IMG/VR virus record: IMGVR_UViG_3300024346_000225
Span: 1 to 36,904 of that record
Direction: 5' to 3' (one strand)
From: a virus
DNA: 36,904 nucleotides
Shown: one piece after another, positions 4,959-35,910 of the stretch
Position numbering within the stretch: position 1 is the stretch's first letter
How the letters are laid out: each line of letters begins with the position of its first letter
The notes under the pieces: model-generated
What the model was told of the DNA's origin: nothing
Databases searched by the model: none
What the model saw: the letters and a program-made list of their open reading frames with translations, nothing else
Translations under genes and position numbers: made by a program

Positions 4959-6080
4959 ATGGCAGACGTAGGCAACTACCCAACAAAAGATAGCATTAGC
5001 AACGGCGATCAATTCATAGCTTACGAAACTTCTAGTGGTCAAGTTGTTAAAATACCCTACAGCGTACTTCGTGAAGCACTGGCGACAACTTTTAGGCAGC
5101 TAACTGACACCCCAGGGTCTTATGTTGGTCAGTTCGGTAAAACGCTCGTCGTAAATAGCACGGAAACAGGGTTAGAGTTCACGACAGCCGCAGCCCCGTC
5201 TGCATATCTTGGGTTGACTGATACGCCTGGGTCATATACTGGGCAAGGCCTAAAGCAGCCCCGCGTTAACACTGGTGAGACCGGTATAGAATTTAGTGAT
5301 CCTTTATTCACGGGCCTAGTAGACACGCCAACAACTTACGTTGGACAGGCCAGTAAGTTGGCAAAGGTAAATACTGGAGAGACTGCGCTAGAATTCAGCG
5401 ATATTAATTTTATTGATTTGGCCGATACTCCGGCCTCAATGGGCGCGCCAGGGCAACTTATTAAAGTAAACCCAGGTGGTACCGCCCTAGAATACACTTC
5501 AGAAGCCTTCATTCAACTTCCTGACACACCGGCAACCTATGCAGCCCAAGGATTAAAAGTTGCAAGAGTTAATGTGGCTGAGAATGCTATAGAATTTGTC
5601 GATACAGCATCAACACAAACTACCGGATGGGCATTATACCAAGACGATGTTTATACGTCTGGCGCACCATTTGTTATTAGCGCTGGAGTCACCTCAGACT
5701 TGCCAAACAATGCGGCGACAATAATTGACACTTTCGTACCTCCTGGTGTTACGGTCCTTTACGATGGGACGGTAATAACACCAGAAAACATAGGTGATGC
5801 CTATGAGATCAGGATTGATTTTAAAACGAGTAACAATAACGTTTCCGGTCTTGCTGACCTAATTATTGATATTGGAGCTCCGGTAGGAGCTATTGCCACT
5901 CGAACATTCTCCTTTCCTAAGGGGGCCGGAACAACAATTGACTACTCAACTACAACGGCGTTTTACTCACTGGCAACATTCGTTACTAATGGCGGGACCA
6001 TTAAAATAAATTCAATAACTGGTGATACCTCGGTTTGGGATATATCGTATACTATTTTTAGAACACACAAAGGCAGTTAA
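4959..6080 (+). CDS. Virion fibre-like protein with five LTDTP repeats and C-terminal jelly-roll-like domain
   Basis: A 373-residue protein. After a short N-terminal beta segment (1-44) come five imperfect repeats of about 35 residues (near 45-74, 83-112, 117-146, 151-179, 184-213), each with a core (L/V)xDTPxxY followed by GQ.x.K...VN..ET.(L/I)EF. Such repeats occur in trimeric phage fibres and head or neck appendages. The C-terminal 155 residues start with GWALYQDDVYTSG and end with ISYTIFRTHKGS, a beta-rich receptor-binding type domain seen in many phage structural proteins. Its location before terminase is unlike P22. It may be an extra host-binding fibre or head decoration. The repeat number may vary between relatives. 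Confidence 0.75.
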   Translation: MADVGNYPTKDSISNGDQFIAYETSSGQVVKIPYSVLREALATTFRQLTDTPGSYVGQFGKTLVVNSTETGLEFTTAAAPSAYLGLTDTPGSYTGQGLKQPRVNTGETGIEFSDPLFTGLVDTPTTYVGQASKLAKVNTGETALEFSDINFIDLADTPASMGAPGQLIKVNPGGTALEYTSEAFIQLPDTPATYAAQGLKVARVNVAENAIEFVDTASTQTTGWALYQDDVYTSGAPFVISAGVTSDLPNNAATIIDTFVPPGVTVLYDGTVITPENIGDAYEIRIDFKTSNNNVSGLADLIIDIGAPVGAIATRTFSFPKGAGTTIDYSTTTAFYSLATFVTNGGTIKINSITGDTSVWDISYTIFRTHKGS

Positions 6081-8204: not shown

Positions 8205-10269
8205 AGATCTGGTACAAACTTCGGATTCTGTCACGAATGCAACCCGTGAAGAAGCAAGCACAATGCTGTTTTTTGGCCGTGCAAATCAATGGGATGACTT
8301 CGGCTATGACGGTGTGCAGCTTCAATACCGTGGCCAATTCGACATCATTAAGCCTAAGCGCAATAAAATACTTGCAGAGCTATGGCAATCACCGCCGCAG
8401 GTCGAATTTAAAGCGCGTGATGGCGCCAACCCTGACACTGCTGAAATACTAAACGGTAAGTTTAGAAACGACATGATCAGAGGGGAGGAATCAATCGAGA
8501 CGATGATTCAAGACCAAGTTGATTGTGGATTTGGTGCGTTTAGGTTCTGTACTGAATACGAATCACGCAATAACGACATGAACGACCACCAACGTATAAC
8601 CCCAAAGCCAATCAATGAAGCTAACAACGTTGTTTATATGGACGCCGGTGCACGCACTAAAGACAAGTCTGATGCTCGTTGGGGTTTGATTATATCCACG
8701 TTCAGCACTGACTCATGGAAGCACTATTGCAAAGAGATAGGTATTGATTGCGATGAGAATGAAGCGCCACCTGTGTTTAAACAGCCAAATACATCTAACA
8801 ACTGGTTATGGGGTGGCGCTAATACTAATGAAATAAAAATCGGCGAGTTCTATCATAGAGAGCGTAAACGTGAACGTGTTCTAAAGTTTGAAGACCCCTT
8901 GGGTGAGTCGATTATTATCAAGCAAAAAGAGCTAAAGGCTCGCATGGATGAGATTGAGGACGGCGGCTATTTGCGGGTTGGCGAGAAGTTTACTGATCGG
9001 TGGATAGTAACTAAATATATTGTTGACGGTGACAAGGTACTCAAGAAGCAGACGATACCAGGTGAATACATTCCTATTGTGTGCGCATATGGTGACTGGT
9101 CATACATCGAAGGCCGCGAGCTATGGAGAGGCATCTATTGGGATGCTCAGGACGCACAACGCTTACATAATGGACTAATGAGCTACACAACCGACATCGT
9201 TATGAAAGGCCCTAGACAGAAGCCAATCCTTCCTGCCGGAATGATCCAAGGTAAGGAAACTTATTGGACTGACGCGGGACCGGATGACAATTTCCCGTAT
9301 AAGTTGATTAATGATTTAAACCCAACAACTGGCAATCCTTATGACGCGAGCCAGATAGGCTACATGCAGCCACCGGCCATGCCAGCAGCACAAGCCCAGT
9401 TGATGCAGCTAGTACGCCAGTCTGTAGATGACGTTACGGGCGGAACGATTGACCAAGACATGATGATGAATGGCCAAGTCACTGAAGGTCAGATCATGGC
9501 CGCTCAGAAGTCGAGCAATATGGAGTCATTCCTATATCAAAACAGTCTATCACTTGCAACTAAGCAGGCCGGTAGGATTTGGCTATCAATGTTCAAGGAC
9601 TTGAATGATGGTGAGCAAGAGGTAACAGTGACCAAGATTGACGGATCGGAAGATACCGCCACGCTAATGAAATCAGAGTTTAATTACGAAACTGGCAAAG
9701 AAGAGATCGAGAACGACATTAATGTTGGCTCGTTCGAGGTGTACGTTGATACTGGTCCAAGCTATTCAAGCGTTCGTGAACAAGCAGAGGCAGAGCTGCA
9801 ATCTATGGCGACAGCGTTACAGGGAACCCCAGAGGGCCAGATACTACTACTTAGTTACATGGCAATCAAAGACGCACCAGGGTTTAAAGACATCCGTAAA
9901 TGGGCCAATAATCAATTGATTTTACAGGGAATTAAGGAACCACAGTCTGACGACGAAATAGAAATGTTTGAACAGGCACAGCAGGCAGTACAAGAGCAGG
10001 GACAACAACCCGATCCTAATATGGCGCTAGCTAACGCAGAGCAAGCTAAGGCTGATGCAAGCATGGCCAAGGTTCAATCTGATGCCGCCAACAATACCGC
10101 TAAGAACCAAATTGACGCATTCAATGCAGAGAGTAAGCGGATTGACGTAATAGCTAGCAATAAACTTAAGCAGGTTGATGCCGCTAAGACCGCGAGTGAG
10201 ATAAAAGGCAATGAGCTTGACAATATAGGTAAGCTAGCTGATAGGTTTATGGGACTGCCTGTTCAATAG
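8185..10269 (+). CDS. P22-type portal protein
   Basis: A 694-residue protein, close to the 725 residues of P22 gp1. The N-terminal part is clearly of this family: FFGRANQWDDFGYDGVQLQYRG (about 29-50), IIKPKRNKILAEL, KDKSDARWGL. The middle includes EYIPIVCAYGDWSYIEGREL and PRQKPILP. The C-terminal 100 residues are alanine- and glutamine-rich helices, the equivalent of the P22 barrel that extends into the head. Twelve copies form the DNA channel at the head vertex and anchor terminase, then gp4-type connector. It is followed by a 113-base leader that contains tandem hairpins before the scaffold gene. Confidence 0.95.
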   Translation: MQIEDIKDLVQTSDSVTNATREEASTMLFFGRANQWDDFGYDGVQLQYRGQFDIIKPKRNKILAELWQSPPQVEFKARDGANPDTAEILNGKFRNDMIRGEESIETMIQDQVDCGFGAFRFCTEYESRNNDMNDHQRITPKPINEANNVVYMDAGARTKDKSDARWGLIISTFSTDSWKHYCKEIGIDCDENEAPPVFKQPNTSNNWLWGGANTNEIKIGEFYHRERKRERVLKFEDPLGESIIIKQKELKARMDEIEDGGYLRVGEKFTDRWIVTKYIVDGDKVLKKQTIPGEYIPIVCAYGDWSYIEGRELWRGIYWDAQDAQRLHNGLMSYTTDIVMKGPRQKPILPAGMIQGKETYWTDAGPDDNFPYKLINDLNPTTGNPYDASQIGYMQPPAMPAAQAQLMQLVRQSVDDVTGGTIDQDMMMNGQVTEGQIMAAQKSSNMESFLYQNSLSLATKQAGRIWLSMFKDLNDGEQEVTVTKIDGSEDTATLMKSEFNYETGKEEIENDINVGSFEVYVDTGPSYSSVREQAEAELQSMATALQGTPEGQILLLSYMAIKDAPGFKDIRKWANNQLILQGIKEPQSDDEIEMFEQAQQAVQEQGQQPDPNMALANAEQAKADASMAKVQSDAANNTAKNQIDAFNAESKRIDVIASNKLKQVDAAKTASEIKGNELDNIGKLADRFMGLPVQ

Positions 10270-10308
10270 TTTTTATCTATCAAACTATGATGTACAATAG
10301 CTTTAATA

Positions 10309-10360
10309 AATACCGAGTGCGGCGGTTTCCGCATATACCGAGTTCAGCGGTTTACTGAAT
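10309..10360 (+). promoter_or_regulatory. Tandem covarying RNA hairpins upstream of scaffold gene
   Basis: Two successive units both read TACCGAG, then a stem, then a CGGTTT loop, then the other stem side. Unit 1 pairs GTGCGG (10317-10322) with CCGCAT (10329-10334). Unit 2 pairs GTTCAG (10342-10347) with CTGAAT (10355-10360). The loops agree but the stems differ while keeping pairing, the mark of selected RNA structure. They lie in the 113-base portal-scaffold gap, 23 bases before the scaffold start. P22 scaffold is known to control its own synthesis, so this is a candidate translational operator; that is inference. Confidence 0.6.
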
Positions 10361-10382
10361 TTGCTAGTAAGGGCATAAGCTT

Positions 10383-11360
10383 ATGAGTTTAGAAGATTTA
10401 AGACGCCAAGTTGAAGAAGAGGAATCAGCAGAAGACCAGCCAAAGGTTGAGGTTGAAGAAGCTGTAGCGGTAGAGCCTGAAGATGAAACGCAGAGCGAAG
10501 GCGACGAATCTGAAGAGACTAACGATGATTTCGATTTTGAGATAGATGGCGAAGAACCCAAGCAAGATAAGCCAACGCCAGAACAGGCGATGCTTTATAA
10601 ACTAACTAAGAAGTCCAAAAAGCTATCTGAAGCCAAGAGTGAGAATGAACAGCTACGGGAAGAAATAGAGGCACTAAAGGCCGGCATGGTGACGCAAAAG
10701 CCTCAACCTAAGCCACAGCAGCAACGCCCAACACCTATACTTCCTGATCTGTATGAGGATTTTAATGGCGACCGAGCTAAATACTCTCAAGCAATTAATG
10801 AGTATTTTAATCAGGTTAACCAGCAAAACCAAAACGCAGTGCAGGCTCAGCAGCAAACTCTAAAGCAGAAGCAAGTTGAACAAGATAGAGCGGTGCGACT
10901 GGCTAAGCGGTCGGCAGACTTCATAACAGCGTCAAAGCTGAATGAAGACAAAGCGACTGATTTCATTCAGTGCGGCATTGAGTCACTTGATACCTTGACA
11001 GGCATCAATGGTGGTGGTCTTTATCTATTGGACAGTGTTGGCGAAGATAGCGAGAAATTGGCTTATTACTTGGGTAAAAATCCGGCTGAACTCAACAGAA
11101 TTAAAGAATGGCTCGAAGAAGACAGTACCGGCTTAAAAGCAATTGCAAACATGACACGAATCGTCACGCAAAAGCTAAAGCCAAAAACTAGTAAATCCAC
11201 TAAAACGTTGGAGCCTGATGAACCGCTAACCGGTTCAACTTCAACAAAGAATGCCGGTGAATTGCAACGTAAGTATGATGACGCCATTTCTAGAGGTCAG
11301 ATGGATAAGATAATGGCAATTAGAAGCGAAGCGAGATCTAAAGGCGTTCAGCTAAATTAA
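10383..11360 (+). CDS. P22-type scaffolding protein
   Basis: A 325-residue protein between portal and coat, about the length of P22 gp8 (303). The first 65 residues are extremely acidic (DETQSEGDESEETNDDFDF region), then a long predicted helix (KKSKKLSEAKSENEQLREEIEALK, about 77-100), a proline/glutamine linker, and a second helical region rich in glutamine (NQQNQNAVQAQQQTLKQKQVEQ). The C-terminus is basic (SRGQMDKIMAIRSEARSKGVQLN), as needed for coat binding in P22. It directs procapsid assembly and then leaves the head. Its leader has two tandem hairpins that may regulate it. Confidence 0.85.
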   Translation: MSLEDLRRQVEEEESAEDQPKVEVEEAVAVEPEDETQSEGDESEETNDDFDFEIDGEEPKQDKPTPEQAMLYKLTKKSKKLSEAKSENEQLREEIEALKAGMVTQKPQPKPQQQRPTPILPDLYEDFNGDRAKYSQAINEYFNQVNQQNQNAVQAQQQTLKQKQVEQDRAVRLAKRSADFITASKLNEDKATDFIQCGIESLDTLTGINGGGLYLLDSVGEDSEKLAYYLGKNPAELNRIKEWLEEDSTGLKAIANMTRIVTQKLKPKTSKSTKTLEPDEPLTGSTSTKNAGELQRKYDDAISRGQMDKIMAIRSEARSKGVQLN

Positions 11361-32629: not shown

Positions 32630-32657
32630 TTGCAAGCTAACTAGGCTTTGCTATAAT
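32630..32657 (+). promoter_or_regulatory. Strong sigma70-type promoter of candidate small RNA
   Basis: TTGCAA (32630-32635), 16 bases, TATAAT (32652-32657). It starts 11 bases after the last gene's stop, and no coding start follows for 530 bases. The expected transcript start is near 32664. Confidence 0.7.
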
Positions 32658-32663
32658 ACTAAG

Positions 32664-32804
32664 TAGGCGTGTGGAAACGTCTTTAGAAATGGTTTATAAG
32701 TTAGGAAAGGTTATTTAGTAACAGGTTCAGAGGCTTTGGGTTTATACCTAACTTCCCTGACCAGCCTTTTCCAACTGGGCTTGTTAACTAAATAGCCTTT
32801 TTTT
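32664..32804 (+). ncRNA. Candidate small RNA with pseudoknot-capable terminator fold
   Basis: About 140 nt from promoter to terminator. A 5' hairpin pairs GGCGT (32666-32670) with ACGTC (32677-32681). The long stem GGTTATTTAGTAACA (32709-32723) with TGTTAACTAAATAGCC (32782-32797) has 15 pairs with one bulge and is followed by seven T (32798-32804). Inside it, AGGCT (32731-32735) pairs with AGCCT (32763-32767) and GGG (32738-32740) with CCC (32755-32757). The remaining apical loop contains CCTAACTT (32747-32754), exactly complementary to AAGTTAGG (32698-32705) upstream. The order makes a pseudoknot or an alternative fold. No family is recognised. Confidence 0.65.
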
Positions 32805-33192
32805 ATGCCCGAAAATCTAAGATATACGAGAACTTCCTTTTGGAATGTGAGAGTTATAAAGATTAGTACGGCACCCTTCTAAATACCCTCCACAAGCCCT
32901 GAATCATTCATTACGGGCGAGACACAGTAAAAAGCTAGTCCCGTAGCACGTCAAAGCTTGCGACATTAAAGAAGCAATAAAGATACACCTACCAATCAAA
33001 TGACGTTTAAGAGCGCGGATAAACAGCGGTAAAGTCATGGTAATGAGGTCTGGGCGTCCCTACAAGGATTTGTGAAACGTCGCTGATACTATTTGATTGG
33101 TTTGTAATGCGAAGGTCGGTAAATTGGTTGGTTAAGCTTAGTAAACCATCCATGACAATCCGCTCTTAATTGACAACTATGGAAAAAATAAA
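32805..33192. other. Structured non-coding segment, candidate replication origin
   Basis: No gene is seen in 388 bases. Structures: TACGGG (32912-32917) with CCCGTA (32940-32945); an 18-bp stem made of ACCAATCAAAT-GACGTTT (32991-33008) and AAACGTC (33075-33081) plus ATTTGATTGGT (33091-33101), with nine unpaired bases on one side; TTAAGAGCG..GAT (33008-33020) against ATCCGCTCTTAA (33158-33169), which would compete with it; and TGGTTGGTT (33125-33133) with AACCATCCA (33144-33152), one mismatch. The segment lies directly before the replication genes. It could be an origin, a second RNA, or a long 5' leader. Confidence 0.5.
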
Positions 33193-33441
33193 ATGCTACC
33201 AGAAACACACCACCAATTAGACGAAAAATGGCTAACAGAAAAGTTTAACGAACTAATTGGAATAACAGGAATAAATCACGCAAAAGCAGTGGCAGATAGG
33301 TATTCCATCGTCTACGCTGATACTTTCGAGAAAGAAACATTAGGACACAAGAAGCACAACAAAGCACGACATGAGGCTAATCAACGGCTAGTAAAGCTGT
33401 TTAAATCACTAGCGGCAAAGCCAATACAGCCAACCGCTTAA
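33193..33441 (+). CDS. Hypothetical protein before helicase
   Basis: An 82-residue basic protein: LPETHHQLDEKWLTEKFNELIG, then a histidine- and lysine-rich segment (LGHKKHNKARHEANQRLVKLFKS). GGAAAA lies 8 bases before ATG. The basic helical character and its place suggest a DNA-binding or replication accessory protein; no family is recognised. Confidence 0.6.
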   Translation: MLPETHHQLDEKWLTEKFNELIGITGINHAKAVADRYSIVYADTFEKETLGHKKHNKARHEANQRLVKLFKSLAAKPIQPTA

Positions 33442-33475
33442 ACCAATCCTAATTTGCATCTTGCAAGGGGAAATC

Positions 33476-34981
33476 ATGAAATTTGAAGATTTACGACCGC
33501 ACCAGCAAAAAGCCATTCAAATGCTACGCAAAGAATGGAAAGTAAAAAGAACACACCAAGTAAGCGCGCCAGTGGCATTCGGAAAAACAGCCACAGCCGC
33601 ATACCTAGCAAAGTCATTTTCAGACCGAGGTAAGCGTGTTCTGTTCGTTGCGCCATACACTATCCTGGTGACTCAAACATCGGACCGTTTTCAAGAGTAC
33701 GGACTAGATAAGCCCGGAATAATTTGGCGGGACCACCCGGACTATAACCCAAACGCAATGGTCCAGATAGCGAGCGCAGACACACTCATACGTCGAGACT
33801 TTCCAGAAAATATAGATTTAATGATTGTCGATGAAAATCATATACGACGCATAAAATTACTAGAAATCATAGAAAATGCAGATTTCCCGGTGGTTGGGTT
33901 AAGTGGGACCCCATTTACACCATGGCTTGGTAAATATTACGATAACTTTGTGAAGCCATGCACTATGCGCGAGCTAATAAACTCCGGGTATCTTTCAGAA
34001 TATGACTTTTATGCGCCAATTAAGCCCGACGTTACCGGGGTAAAGGTCACAAATACAGCCGGGTTTGGAATGGATTACAAGGAACAGGAAGTAGCGGAAA
34101 TCATGGGCGATGCTAAAATTGTAGGAAATATCGTACAAAATTGGCTTGAAAATGGTGAGGACCGCCCAACGATCGCATTTTGCTGCAATGTTGCCCATGC
34201 AAACCACATCACGAACGGCTTCAATAGTGCAGGCGTAGCGTGCGAGGTTATGACCGCAAAAACACCACACGAAGAGCGACAAGAAATTATCGGACGTTAT
34301 GAGCTAGGCATTACAAAGATAATCTGTAATGTTGGCGTATTAGTTGCTGGGTTCGACTCTGACGTTAGGTGTATAATTTACGCTAGACCTACTAAGTCAG
34401 AAATACGCTGGGTCCAGTGTATTGGCCGTGGACTTAGGACCGCACCAGGTAAAGATGTTTGTATTGTGTTCGACCATTCAGGGACCGTCCACCGCTTAGG
34501 ATACCCGGACCAGATAGAATATGACGAATTGAAAAGCGATAAGGACGGCAAAGACAAAGCCGAACAGATACGGCAGGAAATTGAGAAGCTAGAAAAGTCA
34601 CCAAAGGAATGCCCGAAGTGTAAATTTATGAAGCCGGTTGGTTCTCCACAGTGTCCAAAGTGTGGGTTTAAGCCATTAGGCGGTGAAGACGTTGAAACCG
34701 ACGAAACACGGCAAATTCAGAAGCTAAAGCAGAAGCTTGAAAAAAGCGAGATTCCAGAGCTTGACCGTCAAGCATTCTATTCTGAGTTATTAGGATATGC
34801 CCGCGAAATGACAGCAAAAGGAAAGCACTATTCGGAAGGATGGGCGGCTCATAAATATAAAGCTAAGTTTGGGACATGGCCTAATAAGCAGCAGAAATTT
34901 CCATCACCACCATCGATTCAAATGAGAAGCTGGATTAAGTCACAGCAAATTAGATACGCAAAATCGAGGACCAAAAAATGA
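33476..34981 (+). CDS. SF2 helicase with C-terminal zinc motif
   Basis: A 501-residue protein starting at ATG 33476 behind AAGGGGA; the frame reaches back to 33461 but without a better site. Motifs: Q-like LRPHQQKAI (6-14), motif I APVAFGKTATA (31-41), Ia VLFVAPY (55-61), II DENH (119-122), III SGTP (143-146), V VGVLVAGFD (286-294), VI QCIGRGLR (314-321). A zinc pair C379/C382 and C393/C396 follows, then a helical end with GWAAHKYKAKFGTWP, common in phage helicases. It likely unwinds DNA during replication or recombination. It overlaps the primase by 4 bases, suggesting that they act together. Confidence 0.9.
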   Translation: MKFEDLRPHQQKAIQMLRKEWKVKRTHQVSAPVAFGKTATAAYLAKSFSDRGKRVLFVAPYTILVTQTSDRFQEYGLDKPGIIWRDHPDYNPNAMVQIASADTLIRRDFPENIDLMIVDENHIRRIKLLEIIENADFPVVGLSGTPFTPWLGKYYDNFVKPCTMRELINSGYLSEYDFYAPIKPDVTGVKVTNTAGFGMDYKEQEVAEIMGDAKIVGNIVQNWLENGEDRPTIAFCCNVAHANHITNGFNSAGVACEVMTAKTPHEERQEIIGRYELGITKIICNVGVLVAGFDSDVRCIIYARPTKSEIRWVQCIGRGLRTAPGKDVCIVFDHSGTVHRLGYPDQIEYDELKSDKDGKDKAEQIRQEIEKLEKSPKECPKCKFMKPVGSPQCPKCGFKPLGGEDVETDETRQIQKLKQKLEKSEIPELDRQAFYSELLGYAREMTAKGKHYSEGWAAHKYKAKFGTWPNKQQKFPSPPSIQMRSWIKSQQIRYAKSRTKK

Positions 34982-35910
34982 AAACAATTGATTTTGTTAC
35001 TGGTAGATGGTCAGAAATTTTTGCCTATTACAATCTACCTCCCATAGATGCTCGAAATCATTACCGTGGCGAATGCCCAATGTGCAGCGGGAAAAGCAAA
35101 TTACGTGTTGATGATCTAGACGGATCTGGCTCATGGATATGTGTTTGCGGCTCCGGTGATGGGTGGTCACTGCTCACTCAGTCAACAGGGAAAGATTTTA
35201 GGACATTAGCAAAGGAAATAGATGAAGCCTTTGGCAACACTTTTGAAGGCGATTACCAGAAGCCAAAAGTAAACGACCGCTTAGTTAATACCGTGGCGCG
35301 CTTCCGGTCCATATCAAAAATAGAGGGAACCTTAGGGCAGGAATACCTAAACGGTCGCGGAATCACTCAAATGCCAACAGGTGGCGTCAAATACAGTGAG
35401 AGCGAGCATCACACAGACGCAGGCCGCAACTTTGGCGCAATGTATGCTATTGCATCAAATGAATACTCCGAAGCCATACAGCGTCATTTAACGTACCTAG
35501 ACGGTGACAAAAAAGCAGATATTGAACGCAATAAAAAAATGCTGTCACTTCAAGAGTACAGCGGATCAATTGCCGTTAAGTTATTTCCGGCTAGATCAAC
35601 TTTAGGCATAGCCGAGGGCATAGAAACTGCACTATCAGCACACCAGCTTTATAAGTTGCCGGTATGGTCCACACTAAACGCCAGTATTATGAAAAAGTTC
35701 AAGGCCCCGTCCGGGGTCGATACGTTGATGATATTTGCCGACAACGACGCAAACGGCACCGGACTAAATGCCGCATTCGAGTGCGGAAATAAAAATTTAC
35801 TTTCAAACAATGACGTAAACACAGTAGTTATTCGGTGGCCTAAGTTGCCAGATTTTAACGACATGCTACTGGATGGGTGTGACATTTTTGAATGGAAATT
35901 AACAAAGTAA
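34978..35910 (+). CDS. Zinc-binding TOPRIM primase
   Basis: A 310-residue protein. N-terminal zinc region: C33/C36 (GECPMCSG) and C55/C57 (WICVCGSGDGWSLL). The TOPRIM part shows E213 in LGIAEGIETALSA (209-221), D255/D257 in IFADNDANG (252-260) and a final PDFNDMLL (291-298). This is the layout of P4-alpha-type and other phage primases, without a helicase domain; the preceding SF2 protein supplies that. It makes RNA primers at the phage fork. No DnaB-type helicase or helicase loader was seen in the window. Confidence 0.9.
   Translation: MKTIDFVTGRWSEIFAYYNLPPIDARNHYRGECPMCSGKSKLRVDDLDGSGSWICVCGSGDGWSLLTQSTGKDFRTLAKEIDEAFGNTFEGDYQKPKVNDRLVNTVARFRSISKIEGTLGQEYLNGRGITQMPTGGVKYSESEHHTDAGRNFGAMYAIASNEYSEAIQRHLTYLDGDKKADIERNKKMLSLQEYSGSIAVKLFPARSTLGIAEGIETALSAHQLYKLPVWSTLNASIMKKFKAPSGVDTLMIFADNDANGTGLNAAFECGNKNLLSNNDVNTVVIRWPKLPDFNDMLLDGCDIFEWKLTK

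Follow-up and report, generated by a model that had tools for sequence, protein, structure and literature searches.

Does the stretch at positions 32630-32804 of a virus genome encode a new small RNA, and if so, of what kind? The window analysed here is the entire 36,904-nt IMG/VR virus record IMGVR_UViG_3300024346_000225 (36.9 kb), which carries P22-like terminase genes. An initial annotation, made from sequence alone, proposed that this stretch holds a candidate phage small RNA with its own promoter, a terminator and a pseudoknot-like fold. Below we show the sequence features of the locus, its homologues, the covariation among them, the absence of an Rfam match and the changing gene neighbours, and discuss which parts of the proposed RNA remain inferred.

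Putative promoter and 5′ unit in the window

The putative promoter (32630-32657, plus strand) consists of a −35 element TTGCAA at 32630-32635, a 16-nt spacer and a −10 element TATAAT at 32652-32657, and no other site of the window combines 10 of 12 matches with a TG ahead of the −10 box. The promoter is inferred without transcript data, as is the transcription start of the 5′ unit, predicted at about 32664. The claim of a TTGCAA-16-TATAAT promoter thus held, with its coordinates confirmed and with counterparts in relatives, and the claim that no usable start codon follows had to be corrected, since an ATG exists at 32687, albeit with a poor ribosome-binding site and without conservation. It opens a 9-codon frame (MVYKLGKVI) that stops at 32714-32716, in the 5′ arm of the long hairpin. 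A leader peptide starting at this ATG was considered and rejected, as the relatives have no counterpart of it.

Downstream of the promoter, the computed fold gives a 5′ hairpin (AGGCGT..ACGTCT, 32665-32682, plus strand) and then a long hairpin (32706-32803, plus strand), with a run of seven T (32798-32804) at the end of its basal stem, an architecture that recurs in relatives. The terminator hairpin with seven T that had been claimed is therefore present, and its stem, described as 15 pairs, was measured as 17 contiguous pairs (32703-32719/32787-32803) when G-U is included, the pairs extending into the T-run. The fold before this T-run is the most stable ahead of any run of six or more T in the window, and for the 143-nt RNA the computed folding energy is −48 kcal/mol (z = −4.0 relative to 200 shuffles).

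Two contacts could cross this arrangement. In the first, the upstream pseudoknot strand (AAGUUAGG, 32698-32705) is the exact complement of a strand in the apical part of the long hairpin (CCUAACUU, 32747-32754), so that AAGTTAGG and CCTAACTT can pair across the stem with 41 nt between the arms; the claimed complementarity between loop and upstream sequence is exact, only the distance having been given as 42 bases. In the second, the loop of the 5′ hairpin bears the strand UGGAAA (32672-32677), which is complementary to UUUCCA (32768-32773) in a 3′-side bulge of the long hairpin that is left unpaired in the MFE fold. Taken from the window alone, the first contact is weak evidence and could be due to chance: an equally good 8-mer appears in 6-9% of shuffles of the two segments (P about 0.06-0.09), and some 8-mer self-complement is present in 24% of whole-RNA shuffles. 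A nested fold with part of CCTAACTT in the apical stem is favoured by 3.7 kcal/mol over both arms free, and a competing hairpin can form in the window RNA before the 3′ arm is transcribed. A search for antisense targets of the small RNA within the window gave none above background, and its complementarity to the downstream block is no better than that of shuffles.

Recurrence of the 5′ unit in thirteen phages

The hairpin itself drew no match, either as an exact pattern in IMG/VR or by BLAST with the hairpin alone against phages and plasmids. The closest relative found was an IMG/VR contig (L002/L013) whose BLAST-shared part is only 32901-35903, comprising a noncoding block, phrog_852, a helicase and a primase, with the reported hairpin lying outside. 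Pattern scans for the core of this block, termed here the 3′ domain, returned only L002 plus chance matches, mostly in coding sequence. A covariance model built from the conserved noncoding block (32901-33190) found only the window and L002/L013 among about 90 loci, and when applied to whole related phages it detected a diverged homologue in Pseudoalteromonas phages HS1/HS5 (E = 1e-4). In HS5, this homologue sits some 10 kb away from the helicase gene, in a gap of 570 nt that has a head gene on one side and methylase pieces on the other, and the same gap holds a TTGCAG-16-TATAAT promoter-like site plus a hairpin resembling the reported one upstream of the block. BLAST from the HS5 gap yielded 34 Vibrio and Pseudoalteromonas phage records, most of them unannotated at the match. 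A set of 348 further records was not counted among the members, since in many of them the match covers just some 50 nt where the query begins. ROOL was also suspected from rumen contigs and rejected, as the matches look like repeats in coding sequence.

Thirteen phages were compared: the window, HS5, NF, BS5, HS2, 1.085.O, H105/1, vB_VnaS-L3, H2, Seahorse, 1.074.O, 1.233.A and 1.003.O. All share a layout of TATAAT, 5′ hairpin, upstream strand and long stem, usually followed by CCTTTTTT. TATAAT precedes the 5′ unit in every one of them, a TTGCA element lies upstream of it in 8 of the 13, and CCTTTTT or a longer T-run is found in 12, being missing in HS5. Several relatives share an ATTTAGT-type stem arm.

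To evaluate the crossing complementarity, the stretch running from TATAAT up to the stem was compared with the stretch that the stem encloses, and the longest run of one that is perfectly complementary to the other was taken. The mean length of this run across the 13 phages is 8.1 nt with the phage's own loop versus 5.5 nt with foreign loops; the own-loop sum was equalled in none of 100,000 permutations, and shuffles combined by Fisher's method give P = 3e-9. These tests are not fully independent, since some of the phages are closely related, and the stem arms were picked by eye, on the basis of the stem and not of the crossing pair.

The pairing is maintained while its letters change. The strands read AAGTTAGG/CCTAACTT in the window, AATGGTTTGG/CCAAACCATT in HS5, GATAATTGGTG/CACCAATTATC in NF, AGATGGT/ACCATCT in HS2 and GTAGATATAG/CTATATCTAC in H105/1. 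Close relatives alter both sides of the contact together: BS5 and HS2 are nearly identical in promoter and stem and carry GATAATTGGT/ACCAATTATC versus AGATGGT/ACCATCT, and the pair 1.074.O and 1.233.A carries TGAAGG/CCTTCA versus GTCGAAG/CTTCGAC. The initial annotation had named stems drifting without compensatory change in related phages as grounds for refutation, and the opposite was found.

In total, the reported pseudoknot of upstream strand and apical loop is present in 9 of the 13 phages, with counterparts of other letters in HS5, NF, BS5, HS2, 1.085.O, H105/1, H2 and Seahorse. It was not found among the strings chosen by eye in vB_VnaS-L3, 1.074.O, 1.233.A and 1.003.O, where only the kiss was seen. 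The kissing contact between the 5′ hairpin loop and the 3′-side stem bulge, which the initial annotation did not include, is found in all 13 phages by strings again chosen by eye, with only 5 bp in Seahorse. Selecting strings by eye biases both tallies toward pairing; the tests free of such choice are the own-loop permutations, the column shuffles and the slid controls. Counterpoints to the pseudoknot remain in the nested apical stem preferred by the MFE fold and in the four phages with a kiss only. Nevertheless, own-loop complementarity with changing letters across the 13 phages supports the pseudoknot-like fold that had been proposed, and we infer from sequence comparison that the crossing pairing looks like an element of the fold.

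Because promoter, stem, T-run and crossing complementarity recur in relatives with other letters, the feature goes beyond chance. The rival view that a good-looking promoter, a hairpin and an 8-nt complement arose by chance in noncoding DNA rich in AT draws support from the P of 0.06-0.09 of the complement alone, but recurrence with compensatory change in 12 other phages refutes it, and we consider it all but excluded. The switch between terminated and read-through forms, also suggested initially, is plausible given the T-run in 12 of 13 phages and its loss in HS5, but switching has not been shown.

The 3′ domain and its probable link to the 5′ unit

The block at 32901-33190 (plus strand) is a structured noncoding domain with interleaved pseudoknots, identified by conservation and covariation and without an open frame. 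It is 70% identical to L002, versus 50% upstream of the block and 62-68% in the flanking genes. All 44 pairs are kept in the window and L002 with 10 double changes, and slid controls reached at most 2. A P1 hairpin (TACGGG/CCCGTA, 32912-32945, plus strand) shows two of the double changes. Helix PA (32991-33002/33090-33101, plus strand) shows five, a number that 200 column shuffles never reached (maximum 3), and encloses PD (33024-33030/33079-33085), which is invariant between the window and L002. Both PB (33010-33015/33161-33166, plus strand) and PC (33034-33040/33150-33156, plus strand) cross PA.

In most relatives the pairs of the 3′ domain were found again with other letters, the order of the 3′ strands being PA, PC, PB. 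PB reads AGAGCG/CGCTCT in the window, TTAGACC/GGTCTAA in HS5, GATACG/CGTATC in BS5 and AGGCG/CGCCT in NF, and PC occurs in eight letter versions. Two inner changes from U-A to U-G keep pairing on the plus strand only. The conserved pairs with double changes, together with this plus strand-only pairing, thus indicate an RNA fold of the plus strand downstream of the reported feature. A 9-bp helix (32932-32940/33095-33103) is also kept in L002 with two double changes; it competes with the 3′ strand of PA and is possibly an alternative fold of the domain.

Do the two domains belong to one RNA? Most of the relatives read have the 5′ unit followed by the 3′ domain, and the window has no promoter-like site between 32658 and 33190. 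The RNA unit is thus probably larger than the one first annotated and includes the domain at 32901-33190. The main rival holds that two unrelated adjacent parts are involved, a self-terminating small RNA of about 140 nt and a separate downstream structured RNA or element that often travels along. In its favour are the T-run of 12 of the 13 phages, the contig L002, where the 3′ domain stands without a 5′ unit, and the tRNA genes that can intervene; a terminator between the two domains is also a counterpoint to a single RNA. Against it stand the recurrent order of the two domains, the lack of a separate promoter-like site for the second, and HS5, which has lost the T-run yet retains both parts. 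On balance we lean away from the two-part view, without being able to dismiss it.

That the two parts are separable follows from the lone 3′ domain of L002 and from a stray match in Vibrio phage NF (MN812722.2), where a second, stand-alone match to the 1.003.O 3′ domain lies at 10265-10412 on the minus strand, about 11 kb from the NF 5′ unit at 21.7 kb. At the place of the 5′ unit, L002 carries on its minus strand (5284-5431) a TTGAGG-16-TATAAT promoter, about 115 nt and a GCCCCGTT..AACGGGGTTTTTT terminator (z = −4.0), an element that may be another small RNA beside the 3′ domain.

In three relatives, H2, Seahorse and 1.085.O, the space separating the T-run from the 3′ domain contains tRNA genes (Met, Arg, Trp, Gly), which directly follow the T-run (L116 1147-1294, L110 1280-1432 and L111 1209-1435). 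The window has no tRNA at all, and none is annotated beside the RNA in HS5, NF, vB_VnaS-L3 and 1.003.O.

Gene neighbours and likeness to known phage RNAs

The genes beside the RNA change from phage to phage: replication genes in the window, a DNA methylase in HS5, vB_VnaS-L3 and H105/1, a terminase in H2 and Seahorse, a phosphoesterase in NF and an auto-processing chaperone-domain protein in 1.003.O. Since the flanking genes vary, the RNA is not the leader of one gene, and neither a replication origin nor a plain operon terminator fits. A leader of the phrog_852-helicase-primase module, like a replication origin or ColE1-like primer, was at first favoured because the homology with L002 stops at that module, and both were dropped on finding homologues beside other genes.

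One rival view regards the 5′ unit as an ordinary terminator or attenuator before the helicase-primase cassette, with a switch between read-through and small RNA like that of IsrK from prophage Gifsy-1, which has its own promoter and terminator and part of whose transcripts read through to downstream genes (PMC4825925). The stem and T-run, the competing hairpin that forms before the 3′ arm is made and the precedent of a phage small RNA both terminated and read through speak for it, as do intrinsic terminators upstream of the RepL-helicase-primase cassette in five marine phages (L003 4223-4239, L004 3225, L005 3225, L006 3164 and L007 2686). However, the 5′ unit precedes different genes in 12 other phages, so that the downstream operon is not shared, and two kept crossing contacts exceed the needs of a terminator. 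Moreover, IsrK activates one downstream mRNA, whereas here the downstream genes vary and the crossing contacts are the conserved feature. We therefore regard this view as unlikely.

Another rival takes the downstream block as a replication origin or a ColE1-like RNA primer under antisense control, with the hairpin RNA as regulator. In its favour, the homology with L002 does not extend beyond the block together with phrog_852, helicase and primase (32901-35903), and a putative promoter-to-terminator RNA adjoins the block on the minus strand of L002. Homologues nevertheless lie beside methylase, terminase and other genes and not next to the replication genes of their own phage; in HS5 the helicase is at 10.1 kb and the RNA at 21.1 kb; the fixed position of a ColE1-type primer at the replication origin is absent. 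Because the location changes between phages, this rival is largely refuted and is very unlikely to be correct.

The statement that no known family has this layout held: Rfam gave no match at gathering thresholds nor at relaxed E-values for the window, L002, HS5 and five relatives, and its C4 model, representing the C4-type phage antisense RNA of P1, P4 and N15, gave none either. A search of titles and abstracts of the open-licence literature on noncoding RNA of Vibrio or Pseudoalteromonas phages found no paper evidently on this RNA. With its elaborate, covariation-supported and pseudoknotted fold in phage genomes, the RNA resembles GOLLD and ROOL without being a member of either. GOLLD, a large structured RNA found in phages and prophages, frequently lies close to tRNA genes, at times has tRNAs in its linker, and is universally conserved in its 3′ region and less so in its 5′ region. 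ROOL, likewise encoded by phages, is an ornate RNA that contains several pseudoknots and is frequently located near tRNA islands; the function of both is unknown (PMC12286853). Like GOLLD, the new RNA is phage-borne and has tRNAs between its domains in three relatives, but at about 510 nt it is shorter than GOLLD (>800), has a terminator-type T-run in its 5′ unit and lacks an Rfam match. The last point also separates it from ROOL, as does its occurrence in Vibrio and Pseudoalteromonas phages and in the window phage, whose host is unknown. A noncoding RNA of about 800 nt from an ORF-less space is the top transcript of the Vibrio cholerae phage ICP1 and was likened to GOLLD and ROOL by its authors (PMC7567579); ICP1 is without tRNAs, and the likeness to the new RNA rests on no sequence comparison.

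The explanation we find likely is a previously undescribed class of structured phage RNA with its own promoter, two domains and GOLLD/ROOL-like habits, acting in trans. Transcription would begin from the promoter at 32630-32657 and give a 5′ unit (about 32664-32804) in which the 5′ hairpin and the long terminator-type hairpin are locked by two crossing contacts, the kiss (32672-32677/32768-32773) and the pseudoknot (32698-32705/32747-32754). The short form would be an RNA of about 140 nt ending at the T-run, and a fraction of transcripts probably reads through into 32901-33190 to give an RNA of about 510 nt, which in some relatives would include the tRNA genes between the domains. Most likely the product is a folded RNA acting in trans during infection, like GOLLD and ROOL, rather than a single-gene leader. 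Its expression and function, as well as its transcription, termination, read-through, trans action and the single RNA for both domains, are inferred. A bolder reading, possible at most, sees here large ornate phage RNAs that form a new class of their own, apart from GOLLD and ROOL. The fast-drifting yet always self-matching contacts would then serve each phage's RNA as a private lock in folding or in self-assembly, and the linker tRNAs would be made, and perhaps held, together with the RNA during infection.

To date, few large structured RNA classes of phages are known, and what they do has yet to be settled. An unrelated new class in phages whose marine hosts can be cultivated and grow fast (Vibrio natriegens, V. 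alginolyticus and Pseudoalteromonas), with close relatives whose contacts changed in step, offers a tractable system in which expression, fold and need could be tested in existing phage-host pairs. The comparison also shows that a conserved gene sits in unannotated gaps of dozens of sequenced phages.

The neighbour outside the RNA in the window is a PHROG 852 gene of 82 aa (33193-33441, plus strand). Its AlphaFold2 model is a confident three-helix protein (pLDDT 89.6) that found no match in the PDB. The position of PHROG 852 upstream of the phrog_16 helicase is conserved in most relatives that were checked.
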